A model generated the notes under the pieces. The model saw only the letters and a list, made by a program, of their open reading frames with translations, was not told where the DNA came from and searched no databases. Position numbers and translations under genes: made by a program. From assembly GCF_000422505.1 (NCBI RefSeq), contig NZ_AULX01000024.1, forward strand, positions 62,001-126,000: 64,000 nt of DNA, in the 5' to 3' direction. Origin of the DNA: Paenibacillus pinihumi DSM 23905 = JCM 16419. Lineage in GTDB: Bacteria; Bacillota; Bacilli; Paenibacillales; Paenibacillaceae. Of this stretch, positions 57,646-63,598 are shown in pieces (position 1 is the stretch's first letter; the number at the start of each line of letters is the position of its first letter).

Positions 57646-59670
57646 ATGATGCCTGACTGGTCTTATCATTCTTTATTCAAGCCTGTACTGTTCCGCCTGC
57701 CGCCGGAGCAGGCACGGAAGCTGACATTATCGGCAATTGGACTGCTGGGTCGTCTTCCTTTCGGTTCAGGACTGAAATTAATCGATTGGATGGGCCATAT
57801 GGCGCCCCCTGCCGCGCTCCAGAACCGTCTTGGTAAATTGGAGCTGAGTTCACCAGTGGGTCTGTCTGATGCTGTTGATCCCCTCCTTTTGGGGACGGAA
57901 TCATTTACCCGGTTCGGCTTCGGCTTTATTATGCTTGGAGCAGTTGCGCCGGAAATTGGCGGGCCGGATGACGGAACTGAATTGCGCAAGGTCTGGCAGG
58001 ACCGGGAGCGGGAGGCGCTATGTTATAACCGCCGCACGGAGCGGTCAGATACAGGTACGCTGCTTAACCGGCTGTCCAGACTGCCTGCTAAGCATGCCGA
58101 ACAGCCGAAGCGCGGACTTACCTGGCTTGCAGAGACTGCTCGGGAAGGGCAGCGGGCAGAAGATTGCAAACTTGTCCTCCGTTTGTCGCGTCACATCGAC
58201 TTCTGGACAGTGGATGCCTGCGGGCCGGACGGTAAAATCAACGAACCGGCGCTGCGCGAAGCTGTAGCCGTGCTGAAGCAGGCAGCCCCGGATCAGCCCT
58301 GGCTGCTGCATCTCTACCTGGATACACCTGCAGAAGAAACGGCGAGGCTCAGAGATTGGGCCAAGCAGCAAGGAGCGGCAGGAATATGGCTGGACGATAC
58401 AGCCGAGGAAGGGGCAGGTACATACGTATCCGGCCGCTGTAATCTGGAGCGTTTAATCAATAAAGTACGGCAATTAACGGTTACCGGAGAAGAAGGCTTG
58501 CCTGTAGCTGTATCGGGAGCTGCGACTGAACCGGAGGAAGGCCGGCTGCTGCTTCAAGCCGGGGCGAGCTGGCTGGCACTTCACAGTGGGATGGTGTACA
58601 GCGGGCCCGGCTTGCCAAAGCGGATCAATGAGATGTTGGCACAGGACGCGGATCAGCAAGGCCATTTGCTTCAAAGGCCCAACGGGGATTCAGCGGAGAA
58701 TGGCTGGTTCCGGGCCTTCATAAACTCACTCCGCAGCGGCTGGGGATTCATCATGCTGCTCGGAGTCGGAATGCTCATTGGGGGCCAGCTTGCCTGGCTG
58801 ATTGCCGCTACAACGATCGTGTTGCCCTATGATTTGCAATATATCGGCATGACCCGTCCGGAGCTGGAGCTGGTGAACGACCGTTTGCTGCCTTTTATGA
58901 TGCATGACCGCCTGACATTGGCTGGCACTATGATGGCTATCGGTATTCTATATATTGGGCTGGCCAGGTTCGGCATGAGACGCGGGCTACATTATGCCAG
59001 ACAGACAGTGCTCGCCTCGGCAGCTCCAGGCTTCCTCAGCTTCTTTCTCTTTTTAGGGTTTGAATATTTTGATCCGCTCCATGCGCTGGTTTCGGCATTG
59101 CTGTTCCCGTTTTTTATACTCGGTATCGCCATGCACCGGAAATACCGGTTTCACGTTCCCCCGGTTAACCGGCATAATGACTCGCGCTGGCGCGAGGGAC
59201 TGCGGGGGCAGCTTGCATTTGTTATTTTGGGATTTTCCTTGATTATTGGGGGCATTATCATCTCATTAATCGGAATGGGCAGTGTTTTTGTCCCGGAAGA
59301 TTTACTGTACCTCTGTACAACTTCAGAGGAGCTGGCTCAGCAAAATGAAAGACTTATCTCCCTTGTTGCCCATGACAGAGCCGGCTTCGGCGGTGCGCTG
59401 CTGAGTCTCGGTATCGGAGTGCTGCTGCTCAGCCTGTGGGGGTACCGGCAGGGAGAAAGCTGGATCTGGTGGACGCTTGCCATTTCCGGAATGTGTGGCC
59501 TATTTACCGGATTTGGGGTTCACATTGCAATTGGTTACGTGAATCAGTGGCATTTGTTCCCTGCGTATATTGTGTTGTTGCTCTATATTTTCGGCCTTAA
59601 GTATTCTTACCGGTATCTTCATGCCCGTCCGGCTTCAGCTTATGAACAGCCAGGAAATTTTACAGGCTGA
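57646..59670 (+). CDS. degenerate dihydroorotate-dehydrogenase-like domain fused to a duplicated membrane module
   Basis: This is a single 674-residue frame. Residues 1-350 follow class 2 DHODH (LFRLPPEQARKLTLSAIGLL; GFGFIMLGAVAPE; LLQAGASWLALHSGMVYSGPGL). Key positions are lost: the AAGxDKN FMN/substrate segment is SDAVDPLL, the core Lys of vlvKi is His (LLHLY), NTT is DDT, and the late GGI is SGA, so catalysis is doubtful. Residues ~366-510 and ~521-655 are two related membrane units. Both have a P-x-DL-x-Y helix start (LPYDLQYIG; VPEDLLYLC), an EL...N-x-RL stretch, a HDR motif (MMHDRLTLAG; VAHDRAGFGG) and a late conserved His before the last helix. AAGGAGATGG precedes ATG 57646. I do not know a function. 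Confidence 0.75.
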   Translation: MMPDWSYHSLFKPVLFRLPPEQARKLTLSAIGLLGRLPFGSGLKLIDWMGHMAPPAALQNRLGKLELSSPVGLSDAVDPLLLGTESFTRFGFGFIMLGAVAPEIGGPDDGTELRKVWQDREREALCYNRRTERSDTGTLLNRLSRLPAKHAEQPKRGLTWLAETAREGQRAEDCKLVLRLSRHIDFWTVDACGPDGKINEPALREAVAVLKQAAPDQPWLLHLYLDTPAEETARLRDWAKQQGAAGIWLDDTAEEGAGTYVSGRCNLERLINKVRQLTVTGEEGLPVAVSGAATEPEEGRLLLQAGASWLALHSGMVYSGPGLPKRINEMLAQDADQQGHLLQRPNGDSAENGWFRAFINSLRSGWGFIMLLGVGMLIGGQLAWLIAATTIVLPYDLQYIGMTRPELELVNDRLLPFMMHDRLTLAGTMMAIGILYIGLARFGMRRGLHYARQTVLASAAPGFLSFFLFLGFEYFDPLHALVSALLFPFFILGIAMHRKYRFHVPPVNRHNDSRWREGLRGQLAFVILGFSLIIGGIIISLIGMGSVFVPEDLLYLCTTSEELAQQNERLISLVAHDRAGFGGALLSLGIGVLLLSLWGYRQGESWIWWTLAISGMCGLFTGFGVHIAIGYVNQWHLFPAYIVLLLYIFGLKYSYRYLHARPASAYEQPGNFTG

Positions 59671-59779
59671 TCGATTACAAATTCGCATAGACGTTTAACT
59701 GGCAGCCAAGGTGGTAAAGGATATGCGGTTGCAAACCTCAAGGATTCCATAGATATTAATAGGCTGTGAAGCCGAAAGC

Positions 59780-59824
59780 AAAGAACCTCTGCTCGCGTAA
59801 AAGCAACGGGATCAGAGGTTCTTT
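59780..59824 (-). terminator. probable terminator of bioY (also readable on the + strand)
   Basis: AAAGAACCTCTG (59780-59791) pairs perfectly with CAGAGGTTCTTT (59813-59824). It lies between the convergent fusion gene and bioY; the minus-strand side continues as TTTGCTTTC. Confidence 0.6.
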
Positions 59825-59858
59825 GGGCTGACTTTGACTCACAGACCTTCGGCATGCG

Positions 59859-60473
59859 TCAACGCGCCTTGTGATTTGCTTGTGCAGCAGGAGCAACGCT
59901 CCTGGTACTGTGAAGACTTGGCATATAAGCGTACAATGCTGATGTCACAATGGCCGCGACAACAGATTTGATGAGATCACCTGGCAGGAACGGGAACATG
60001 CCGACTGTCATTGCCTTACCAATGGATAAATTCGCTGCATGGGCAAGCCATGGAACACCGCCGACATACGAGAGCAGGGAGCCGAAGACCATAAAGACAA
60101 CAAATAAAACGGCCAATCTCAATTGTTTGCTCCGCCCGATAGCTGGTGAAGCAAACACCTTGCGGGTGAAGTAGCCAACAACGAGCGCACATAACGGGAA
60201 CATCCAGATGAAGCCGCCAGTCGGGCCAAATACAACGGCCAAACCACCTTGACCGCCAAGCAGCGGCAAGCCAAGTGTTGTCAGTATACAGACGAACAGG
60301 ATGCTCAAAAAGCCGTAGCGTGCGCCTAAGAAAGCTCCGGCCAGCATAAGCGCAAGATTTTGCAGTGTAATCGGCACCGGGGAAAATCCAAGCGGAAGCT
60401 TGATCGCACTCATCACAATAAATAAAGCGGAGAATAGCGCGGTGTACACGATGCTGCGAATGGGACTGGACAT
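59859..60473 (-). CDS. bioY: biotin transporter substrate-binding (S) component BioY
   Basis: This 204-residue ECF S-component has six membrane helices and the BioY motifs LPLGFSPVPITLQNLALMLAG and GGFIWMFPLCALVVGY with the intervening LLGGQGGLAVVFGPTG. It captures biotin in the membrane. AAAGGAGAGATTACAT precedes the ATG on the minus strand. A BirA-type operator lies 24 nt upstream, and the fused ECF energy-coupling gene is divergent on the other side, so regulation may be shared. Biotin is needed for AccB. Confidence 0.95.
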   Translation of the reverse strand: MSSPIRSIVYTALFSALFIVMSAIKLPLGFSPVPITLQNLALMLAGAFLGARYGFLSILFVCILTTLGLPLLGGQGGLAVVFGPTGGFIWMFPLCALVVGYFTRKVFASPAIGRSKQLRLAVLFVVFMVFGSLLSYVGGVPWLAHAANLSIGKAMTVGMFPFLPGDLIKSVVAAIVTSALYAYMPSLHSTRSVAPAAQANHKAR

Positions 60474-60496
60474 TATGTAATCTCTCCTTTATTCTA

Positions 60497-60529
60497 TTGT
60501 TAACCATAAATATTTTATTTGGTTAACAA
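60497..60529. promoter_or_regulatory. BirA operator between bioY and the ECF fusion gene
   Basis: TTGTTAACC (60497-60505), a 15-nt A/T spacer and GGTTAACAA (60521-60529) form a perfect inverted repeat, matching the biotin operator of Firmicute BirA repressors in sequence and spacing. It is in the 84-nt divergent intergenic region. Confidence 0.92.
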
Positions 60530-60557
60530 AAAAGATCGTATCACAGGTTGATCGGGA

Positions 60558-62966
60558 ATGGAAGAGGTAGATGCTGTTTTGCAGAAAAAAATTTTAATAG
60601 ACTTCAATCAAGTAACTGTAACCGCAGTGGCAGATCAGGAAGCCATACAGATTCTTCATGCAGAAGAGCTTACTATCTGTTCTGGCGAATGGATACATAT
60701 CGTCGGAGATAACGGCAGCGGGAAAAGCACCTTTGTCAAACTCATTGCCAATCAGCTAGGTATGGGCTGCCATGTAGACGGGCAGGTGCGCCGCTCATCC
60801 GAGCTGGAGCGGCCGTTTCCATATGTAAGGCAGAATCCCGAGGCAGCTATTATCGGAACGACAGCATGGGAGGACCTGCTGATCGGGCTTGAGCAGGCTG
60901 GTGTGGATGCAGAGCAGATTCAGCCGAGAATTGCAGCAGCGCTTGAGACTGTAAGGCTGCTGGATAGGCAGCATCAGCCCGTATCGACCATGTCCGGCGG
61001 GCAAAAGCAGCTGGTAGCGATCGCCGGATGTCTGGCTGCAGATGCGCCGCTGCTTATTCTGGATGAAGCTGCCTCCATGCTGGACACCGCTTCGCGTGAG
61101 CTTGTCCTGCGGGCGGTACGGGAGCAGCACCGCCGGGGGATGACCGTTATCTGGGTTACGCACAGTATGGAAGGGCGGCAGCCTCAGGACCGTCTTATTG
61201 TCTTCGACAAGGGACGGATTACGCATGACGGAACTATTGCAGAAGACGCTGAACTGCACTGCGGACGGCAGCTCACCGTTGATGCCGTAAATGTCAATGC
61301 TCTTTCGTCCAAGACAAATCCCGAGCATTATTTGGGAGAAAGCCAGCCTACCGGCAATAAGAGAATGGAAAGAGACAGAGGACCAGAAGGAGCTTTGGCG
61401 GAAGGATGGAAGCTGGAAAGTGTGAGTATCAGGCGCGATGCTTCACACGGCAAGCCGTTATTGAATATCCCACGACTGCAAATCCCCACGGGGGGACTGA
61501 CGCTAATTGCCGGCAGCAATGGTGCAGGCAAAACAACACTGCTGGAGACGATTGCAGGGCTTAGGCGTCCCTCCGCCGGAGATATCAGCCTTGGCGGTGA
61601 ACCTCTTTGGAACGGCCGCAAGCTAAACAGGGAGGTGCTGCTAAAGTTTGGCTTATCGCTTCAGCATAGTGAATCACAATGGTTTCTCCCTCAAGTGAAG
61701 GATGAAATTGTCTATTCCCTCCGTCCTTACTCCCTTGGCCCGGATGATCAGGAAGCGAGGACAACTAGCGCGATGGAACTGGCAGGACTAGGCATTGATA
61801 TGGCCGCCCGCAACCCTTGGTCCTTGAGTGGCGGGCAGCAGCGGCGGCTGGCATGGGCATGCCTGCTCGCAGCTCAGCCTGCGTGGCTGCTGCTGGATGA
61901 ACCTACGGCAGGTCTGGATGCCAAAGGGACAGCCGATTTGCTCTATGGTTTGTCCCGGCATGTGGAGCAAGGGGGAAGCGCGATAGTCGTCACCCACGAT
62001 ATTGGGTTGTTCCGTGAACTTGCAGACCGGATTCTATTGGTTCAAGACGGGGAACTGACAGCTTCATTTTCGGCAGAAGAATGGTTTGAAGATGGTCGCA
62101 TACCTGCTTCTAATTGGCTGCTTGATGAACAAGCTTCGTTGAAGCAGGTGCAGCAGCGCCGTGAGCCTGCCGGAGAACGGCAGAACCATTCGTCCCGCTC
62201 CCCGGAGCAAAGCCCGCAGCCTGGCAATCAGGAACGAAAAGGGTTGCAGTGGAGCGGGTATGACCCGCGGGCATTATGGCTGTCCTATGTGCTGCTGGCT
62301 GCGGGAATTTTGCTTCAGCACGATTGGCAGGGTATGATAGTATCAGGGCTGATAACAATCGCAGCTCTTTGGAGCGGCAAGGCTGATCTTCGTCCATGGT
62401 TCCGGTTAATCGGCTTATATGTCTTCATGTTTATCTTTTTTTCGTTTTTTTCCGGACTCAGCATGTATCCGTCAGGATTTGATTTTAATGCTGCGGGCAA
62501 GACTCTGTTTTACTTTTGCAAGCTGCTTATGGTCATGCTGCTTGGTCTGGGGATGGCTGCGGCCATCACTCCATTCAGGCTGCAGCGTGCATTGGAGCAG
62601 GCAATCAGGCCGCTGGAGCGGCTAAGGATGCCGGTACAGCGTATTGCCCTGACACTGTCACTCATATTCCGCTTCATTCCGCTGCTTCTGTCAGAATGGT
62701 CGAAGCTGTCCCGGATTGTCCAGGCAAGAGGCAAACGGGCATCTGCTGCTGGCAGGGTTCCTGCCGGTGATCTGCACCGTGTCGTGCTGCCTTATATCGT
62801 GCTTTTGCTCAGGATGGCGGAACAGATGTCCGAGGCGCTGGAGGCGAGAGGCTTCGGCAAGCAGGGAGTGAGGGTGACCAGGGCTTGGACGCTAAGGCTG
62901 GAGCCGGCTGATTATTTCTTAACTGTTGGAGCCGCAGCTTTGCTTCTGCTGCTTATTTTGCTGTAG
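60558..62966 (+). CDS. fused ECF transporter energy-coupling module (EcfA-EcfA'-EcfT in one chain)
   Basis: This is one 802-residue frame with three modules. ATPase 1: Walker A GDNGSGKS (~51), VRQNPEAAIIGTTAWEDL, MSGGQKQL (~145), LLILDEAASMLD, THS. ATPase 2 from ~295: GSNGAGKTT (~319), QHSESQWFLPQVKDEI, LSGGQQRR (~422), LLLDEPTAGLD, THD. From ~567 an EcfT-like permease with four to five helices and the two Ala-Arg-Gly coupling motifs VQARGKRA (~721) and LEARGFGK (~761). Normally these are three genes. Linkers are hydrophilic (residues ~245-290 and ~530-565). ATG 60558 is given; TTG 60579, with GAAGAGGT upstream, is an alternative. It is divergent from bioY across a BirA box, so biotin is the likely substrate. 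There is no sign of frameshift or internal stop. Confidence 0.88.
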   Translation: MEEVDAVLQKKILIDFNQVTVTAVADQEAIQILHAEELTICSGEWIHIVGDNGSGKSTFVKLIANQLGMGCHVDGQVRRSSELERPFPYVRQNPEAAIIGTTAWEDLLIGLEQAGVDAEQIQPRIAAALETVRLLDRQHQPVSTMSGGQKQLVAIAGCLAADAPLLILDEAASMLDTASRELVLRAVREQHRRGMTVIWVTHSMEGRQPQDRLIVFDKGRITHDGTIAEDAELHCGRQLTVDAVNVNALSSKTNPEHYLGESQPTGNKRMERDRGPEGALAEGWKLESVSIRRDASHGKPLLNIPRLQIPTGGLTLIAGSNGAGKTTLLETIAGLRRPSAGDISLGGEPLWNGRKLNREVLLKFGLSLQHSESQWFLPQVKDEIVYSLRPYSLGPDDQEARTTSAMELAGLGIDMAARNPWSLSGGQQRRLAWACLLAAQPAWLLLDEPTAGLDAKGTADLLYGLSRHVEQGGSAIVVTHDIGLFRELADRILLVQDGELTASFSAEEWFEDGRIPASNWLLDEQASLKQVQQRREPAGERQNHSSRSPEQSPQPGNQERKGLQWSGYDPRALWLSYVLLAAGILLQHDWQGMIVSGLITIAALWSGKADLRPWFRLIGLYVFMFIFFSFFSGLSMYPSGFDFNAAGKTLFYFCKLLMVMLLGLGMAAAITPFRLQRALEQAIRPLERLRMPVQRIALTLSLIFRFIPLLLSEWSKLSRIVQARGKRASAAGRVPAGDLHRVVLPYIVLLLRMAEQMSEALEARGFGKQGVRVTRAWTLRLEPADYFLTVGAAALLLLLILL

Positions 62967-63000
62967 TGTGCGCCTGCAAAAAAACGAAACTTTACTTTAA

Positions 63001-63029
63001 TTGGCACGTAATAAATTTGTAATTATAAT
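63001..63029 (+). promoter_or_regulatory. sigma-A promoter of lepB
   Basis: TTGGCA (63001-63006), a 17-bp spacer and TATAAT (63024-63029). The start of transcription falls near 63036, so the in-frame ATG at 63035 cannot be the start codon. Confidence 0.75.
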
Positions 63030-63076
63030 AGGCTATGATAGAGAAATTCGATAATTGGCTGGAGAGGAGAGCAGAA

Positions 63077-63598
63077 ATGAACAAAGGTTGGAAGAAGGAA
63101 ATACGGGACTGGACTTTAACAATAGCAGGGGCGTTTGGGATCTCCCTATTGATTCAAAGCTACGCATTTGCACAGACAGAAGTCCAGAACATTTCCATGG
63201 AGGGCACACTAATCGAGGGTCAGCGTCTGATCGAAGATAAGGTTTCCTATGCACTGACCGAGCCCAAGCGTGGAGATATTGTTATCATTAACGGACCGGA
63301 GAGTGATCTGCGGCTGATCAAAAGGCTGATAGGCCTTCCCGGAGACACTATAGATATGAAGGACGGTAAGCTTTATTTGAACGGCAAGCAGATTGAAGAG
63401 TCGTATACCAGAGGGTTGACGGAGCCTCTCGGCCTTACTCTGCCTTATGTCGTCCCGGAAGATAAAGTGTTTGTCATGGGAGATAACCGTGAGCACAGCA
63501 AGGACAGCCGGGAAATCGGACCAATTGCATTTTCAAGCCTTGAGGGCAAAGCAGTATTCCGCCTGTGGCCGCTTGACAAGTTTGGTAATTTGCATTAG
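63077..63598 (+). CDS. lepB: signal peptidase I
   Basis: This 173-residue membrane protease removes signal peptides from exported proteins. It has an N-terminal anchor (WTLTIAGAFGISLLIQSYAF), the catalytic Ser in QNISMEGTL, the catalytic Lys in LIKRLIGLPGDTI, and the family box D/E motifs VFVMGDNREHSKDSREIG. GAGAGGAG lies 7 nt before ATG 63077. The residue after Glu in the Ser motif is Gly where Pro is commoner. It has its own promoter. Confidence 0.94.
   Translation: MNKGWKKEIRDWTLTIAGAFGISLLIQSYAFAQTEVQNISMEGTLIEGQRLIEDKVSYALTEPKRGDIVIINGPESDLRLIKRLIGLPGDTIDMKDGKLYLNGKQIEESYTRGLTEPLGLTLPYVVPEDKVFVMGDNREHSKDSREIGPIAFSSLEGKAVFRLWPLDKFGNLH

Follow-up and report, generated by a model that had tools for sequence, protein, structure and literature searches.

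Can the entire energy-coupling module of an ECF transporter be encoded by one gene, and would such a module serve only the S component encoded beside it? A locus of Paenibacillus pinihumi DSM 23905 raises this question. It lies in the window, i.e. the whole stretch of 64,000 nucleotides that was analysed (contig NZ_AULX01000024.1, positions 62,001 to 126,000). The first-pass annotation, made from the letters alone, had described there a single-polypeptide module (ATPase, ATPase, EcfT) paired with bioY. Arguing from sequence, we consider that the locus very probably encodes a dedicated biotin ECF importer of the group I type, repressed by BirA, whose motor has been turned into one chain. The features concerned are the following.

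59859 to 60473, minus strand: bioY, biotin S component, 204 aa (PF02632, E 2.3e-36; solved BioY 4dve, E 1.1e-22)
60474 to 60557, unstranded: gap of 84 nt between the divergent start codons
60497 to 60529, unstranded: putative BirA-type operator, 33 bp, perfect TTGTTAACC-N15-GGTTAACAA
60558 to 62966, plus strand: fused ecfA-ecfA'-ecfT, 802 aa in one frame, with ABC_tran twice and CbiQ; fusion also in P. roseus and G006
60558 to 61259, plus strand: ATPase domain 1 (EcfA type), residues about 1-234, with GDNGSGKST, MSGGQK, LLILDEAASMLD and VTHSM
61260 to 61397, plus strand: linker 1, residues 235-280, predicted disordered (pLDDT <50)
61404 to 62105, plus strand: ATPase domain 2 (EcfA' type), residues about 283-516, with GSNGAGKTT, LSGGQQ, WLLLDEPTAGLD and VTHDI
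62106 to 62240, plus strand: linker 2, residues 517-561, low model confidence (pLDDT <50)
62250 to 62963, plus strand: EcfT domain, residues about 565-802, with two Ala-Arg-Gly motifs

The fused gene spans 802 codons without any interruption of the frame, and its product contains two ABC_tran domains and one CbiQ domain, all above the curated Pfam cut-offs. This confirms the uninterrupted frame, the two ABC ATPase cores and the EcfT-like part described at first reading. The ATPases match the EcfA1 and EcfA2 chains of solved structures; domain 1 is matched by solved EcfA1 chains, and domain 2 reaches Z values of 28-30 against solved EcfA/CbiO chains. Walker A, signature, Walker B with its Glu and the switch His are present in both. 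The membrane domain matches PF02361 above the cut-off (E 1.9e-14) and solved EcfT chains (E about 3e-12). As is typical of EcfT/CbiQ proteins, it has two Arg-containing motifs, and both are the Ala-Arg-Gly motifs that had been noticed. By the features examined, the 802-aa protein belongs to ECF modules. On the opposite strand, across the 84 nt, whose coordinates proved exact, the 204-aa protein has a BioY domain above the curated Pfam cut-off and is the only PF02632 match in the genome. No Rfam match was found in the window at gathering thresholds. Elsewhere in the window, a 674-aa frame (57646-59670, plus strand) gives no Pfam match at 1e-4; by eye, its N-terminal part recalls a dihydroorotate dehydrogenase and the remainder looks like membrane helices.

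We then considered whether an assembly or sequencing error joined two genes into a single frame. Most relatives examined do have two overlapping genes, and two loci inside fused clades (G029 and G295) are broken in or after ATPase 2. A further locus (G013) has stops inside the T match, so errors or decay do occur. However, the fusion is also continuous in P. roseus (L004, over 785 aa) and in G006, a one-contig genome (over 846 aa), which group with the window in a single clade (SH-aLRT 100), and it is uninterrupted in other clades too. An error at the origin of the frame is therefore extremely improbable, and we rejected it. The first-pass annotation had also envisaged a missed stop or a frameshift between modules; none interrupts the frame in P. 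roseus or G006 either. Between the window and P. roseus, most changes in the three domains are at the third position of the codon. This bias is absent from the linkers, where residues are alike at 15 of 37 and at 13 of 46 aligned positions, and in both strains the frame remains open across these two poorly conserved segments. At the G295 locus (L112), the frame enters a long Ala-Pro-rich repeat after ATPase 2 and T lies in another frame; this break is either a changing repeat or an assembly fault.

To place the fusion among relatives, we used the T part by itself as a query against the window's GTDB family (394 genomes). The full-protein query, run across the order with 4 candidates out of up to about 200 scored per listed genome, recovered only the window's own genome and was not used, while the T-part query worked. 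A T match at E 1e-12 was obtained in 274 family genomes and a bioY match at E 1e-8 in 302. All 185 genomes in which T matched with an E value of at most 1e-20 also contain bioY, vs. 117 of the 209 others (hypergeometric 2e-31, a value that ignores relatedness and comes from lists copied by hand). Among the 123 genomes common to both lists, bioY and T are divergent and at most 5 kb apart in 115, the matches being on different contigs in the remaining 8.

We dissected 66 loci, 62 from this family and 4 from named Paenibacillus records (L004, L005, L008, L010). Copies were left out (L006, L007, L009 and L014, of L083, L058, L054 and L055, respectively), as were a partial copy of the window (L003) and two loci with T past the contig end (L011, L013). 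One locus cut at the contig start (L056, from G004) was never counted, and L115 and L127 were later removed as copies of L012 and L015. In 43 loci, ecfA is followed by an overlapping ecfA'-ecfT gene; in 21, which include G013, all three are fused; the last 2 are the broken fusions of G295 and G029, where A1 and A2 are joined and T is out of frame. As the loci were partly picked for long frames, 21 out of 66 is not a frequency. The bioY gene is divergent in all 66 (most picked by T, three by bioY). In other families of the order, ecfA, ecfA'-ecfT and a divergent bioY were present at 19 loci out of 19. An S component gene adjoining A and T genes, the mark of group I systems, is thus found at every one of the 66 and 19 loci. 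From the T-match table, 150 genomes were taken, of which 21 have a frame of at least 800 aa; 20 of these frames are A-A'-T, and that of G005 is A'-T with a long linker. The order search gave no frame of at least 800 aa outside the window's family among the matches listed, and in a phylum sample of 71 genomes, frames above 450 aa appeared in two rows (526 and 941) among the matches listed, which do not include diverged T domains such as that of the window itself. The first-pass annotation had proposed searching genomes for the A-A'-T architecture and its association with bioY: the 21 fused loci, always with a divergent bioY, bear out a single-polypeptide module paired with BioY, together with its domains and its divergent adjacency.

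Judged from these loci, a two-gene system with A' already joined to T extends across the order, and the triple fusion is a state that recurs within it. When 85 loci are placed on a tree, those with the fused state make up 10 separate clades and at least 10 changes are required, with G295 and G029 scored as fused (also 10 without them); a smaller tree without the other families needs 9. Both trees are quick builds without bootstrap, with several weak forks and an unsure root, and rows of other families are scattered among family rows in the larger one, so that the about ten fusion events suggested here are an estimate. Some fused clades have two-gene sisters: G391/G392 beside G283 (support 100), the g13 group beside G289 (97), and G308 beside the fused G316 (96). 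Every one of the 19 loci from other families is of the two-gene type, which makes repeated gain of the fusion the simpler explanation. Counted from the first possible start codon, the frames of the 43 two-gene loci overlap by 4-133 bases (by 4-16 bases in 26 of them), and a small indel could therefore join them. The single chain would have been made by joining ecfA to an already fused ecfA'-ecfT. Linker length was also tried as a mark of separate fusions and rejected, since it varies within clades as well as between them.

We also compared the two ATP sites. ATPase 1 of the window protein has DEAA after Walker B, in which the first-pass annotation had seen a hint of unequal sites. DEAA is indeed present, but the hint did not survive comparison: DEAA is better seen as near to DEAT, the common form of EcfA here, than as deviating from DEPT. 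The majority sequence is DEATSMLD in ATPase 1 and DEPTAGLD in ATPase 2, i.e. the usual difference between EcfA and EcfA' here; the separate EcfA and EcfA' of another cluster of the same genome (C2) show the same pair. DEAA as the sign of an inactive site was rejected as well: the Walker B Glu is present in all 66 ATPase 1 domains, DEAA occurs in 7 of them, and another EcfA encoded in this genome has DEATSMLD. A different substitution is widespread. Gln takes the place of the ATPase 1 switch His in 59 of the 85 loci (48/66 and 11/19; e.g. L063, L083, L090, L144), including 16 of the 21 fused loci, 30 of the 43 two-gene loci and both broken ones. The corresponding position of ATPase 2 is His in 85 out of 85, G029 changing frame close by. 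Only three changes between His and Gln are needed on the 85-locus tree, and His is kept in the window and its six nearest relatives on that tree. Since the window protein keeps this His, unequal catalysis is not indicated for it. Overall, the ATPase motifs are intact in nearly all of the 66 loci.

The single-chain model of the 802-aa protein has a mean pLDDT of 85.6 and a pTM of 0.83, with low values in the two linkers. The alignment behind it had 56 rows, made up of the window, 19 fused proteins and 36 of the 43 A'-T proteins; no separate ATPase-1 protein, of which there are 43, was among them. DppD, the tandem ATPase chain of ATP-bound DppABCD, can be superposed on residues 11-522, with 466 residues at 3.4 A by VIA and, by Foldseek, with 5.1 A over 549 columns. 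Coverage by VIA was mainly of ATPase 2 (residues 280-523), and the T domain was assessed from its sequence. The model is consistent with an ATPase dimer formed in cis within one chain. The chain might also be cut after translation within its linkers, yielding the usual separate subunits. Residues 235-280 and 517-561 would suit such a process, with their pLDDT below 50 and their poor conservation, but the fusion has been retained in whole clades, which weighs little against it. We regard this cleavage as rather improbable.

The perfect 9-15-9 box announced by the first-pass annotation is indeed present as an exact match. TTGTTAACC-N15-GGTTAACAA occurs once in the window, where 0 occurrences are expected, and in none of 100 shuffles. 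Genome-wide, GTTAAC-N15..23-GTTAAC is not enriched (6 sites vs. 12 for the reversed control pattern), and the case for the box therefore depends on its flanks, position and conservation. An exact GTTAAC pair lies within 120 nt of the bioY/ecf gap in 58 of the 66 dissected loci. Seven of the other eight have 2-4 of 18 positions changed and G314 has 5; in shuffled 300-base regions, at most 4 changes were reached in 1 case out of 200 and at most 5 in 9 out of 200. In the other families of the order, the pair at the gap is exact in 9 of the 19 loci and has 2-3 changes in 6, while the remaining 4, with 5-8 of 18 positions changed, have no recognisable box. A promoter scan of positions 59650-63100 gave 3 sites vs. 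2.4 expected, with no excess over chance; one of them (60467-60495, plus strand, 9 of 12) abuts the 33-bp box.

The genome also encodes a BirA with HTH_11, ligase (BPL) and C-terminal domains; HTH_11 and BPL exceed their Pfam cut-offs, and the match to TIGR00122 scores below the cut-off of that model. Two similar boxes with GTTAAC pairs are located upstream of bioB. Both elements of a BirA regulon are hence present, namely a BirA-type operator in the control region and a BirA with a DNA-binding domain. We take the box to belong to BirA on the basis of the operator motif known from the literature and of this genomic context, and the 33-bp box is likely a BirA-type operator. Another box, TTGTTAAC-N18-GTTAACAA (L062:4625, G000:C6:5624-5653), directly precedes a DUF1284 gene (PF06935, E 3.8e-25). 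This gene is possibly BirA-regulated; the bare pattern being unenriched genome-wide, chance may explain the box. About 3.4 kb from bioB, parts of a group II intron were detected by Rfam (L061:10092-11890, minus strand), holding a frame that is a reverse transcriptase by eye.

Does the module serve only BioY? Three other ECF modules are encoded in the genome. C2 has an S component of the CD3073 type with A, A' and T; C6 has a PF12822 S component, a double ATPase and a protein that resembles T but is missed by PF02361; C4 has T, a double ATPase and a protein taken by reading for an S component, with neither a Pfam nor an NCBIfam match. The fused module could energise other S components too, or BioY could use one of these other sets, as in group II systems, where S components compete for one module (PMC7755397). 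Moreover, as PF02361 missed one T-like gene of the genome, a shared module could also have escaped detection. However, every S component found adjoins its own A and T genes (that of C4 by reading only), and no solitary one was found in the genome for the families searched (PF02632, PF12822, PF07155). In addition, bioY is present in 185 of the 185 genomes with a strong T match, and the two genes are usually adjacent. Sharing is accordingly unlikely in our opinion, and an S component beside its own module supports a dedicated one. With S components adjoining their own modules and a confident single-chain model, it is reasonable to infer both a dedicated module and a heterodimer formed in cis. 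The frame at L110:1602-2507 (plus strand) is likely an EcfT, by eye and from its position in an ECF cluster, and has no PF02361 match.

Comparison with known systems helps to situate this module. In BioMNY, BioY has a dedicated A/T module whose T carries an Ala-Arg-Ser and an Ala-Arg-Gly motif (PMC3246461). The P. pinihumi system would share this dedication and has two Arg-containing motifs as well, but BioMNY has a single kind of ATPase (BioM) and a separate BioN, whereas two different ATPases and T are here in one chain, divergent from bioY. The same three domain types form the group II modules EcfA-EcfA'-EcfT, whose solved EcfA1, EcfA2 and EcfT chains are matched; those subunits are separate and serve many S components, unlike a fused module located beside one. 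The adjacent BioY places the system with group I systems such as BioMNY (PMC3246461, PMC5037267). A natural A-A fusion exists in YkoEDC, a dedicated ECF system in which YkoD consists of two fused ATPases (PMC5037267), but its T (YkoC) is separate; a fused A1-A2 is also mentioned in PMC6828968. CbiQ-CbiO fusions (G568, L139) likewise join T to an ATPase, but there T comes first and only one ATPase is fused. A chain of 928 aa from another Bacillota family (G527, L138:3233-6019, minus strand) combines two ABC_tran domains with CbiQ and adjoins a PF09819 (YkoE-like) S component; the A-A'-T chain would therefore not be confined to biotin. Our literature search returned no description of a BioY-linked A-A'-T fusion; older ECF papers outside it may mention such fusions.

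The importer could work as follows. BioY would bind biotin, and the 802-aa protein would be the whole energy-coupling module, with its EcfT domain in the membrane and a stoichiometry presumably set by the chain. The two ATPase domains of one chain would form a head-to-tail heterodimer driving the docking and release of BioY. When biotin is plentiful, BirA with biotinyl-AMP would occupy the 33-bp box and repress both divergent genes. Solitary BioY proteins are in some cases able to transport without a module (PMC11109136), and BioY could similarly import biotin alone here, the fused module having acquired a different function under the shared operator. The conserved adjacency, the box common to most loci and the ATPase motifs intact in nearly all of the 66 loci argue against this, and we consider it very improbable; transport by BioY with its fused motor is the reading retained.

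The feature is real; it seems to be a modest variation, in which a known transporter mechanism is associated with an unusual gene architecture that seemingly evolved repeatedly. Group II S components leave and rejoin their module under ATP (PMC12075633). Some ten fusions from A'-T two-gene systems might point to selection for a permanently assembled motor that only BioY leaves, and with the ATPase 1 His lost in so many loci, single-chain ones included, many motors might have mainly one catalytic site; we propose this tentatively, with more doubt than conviction. As a guide to annotation, a protein of about 560-950 aa that combines ATPase and CbiQ domains and is encoded beside bioY in a member of this order would likely be a biotin ECF motor. 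Relatives that have the switch His in ATPase 1, compared with those that lack it, would offer a test of the need for both ATP sites. Finally, a natural A-A'-T chain beside close relatives with two genes would provide a direct comparison with a motor in which only the S component is able to leave.
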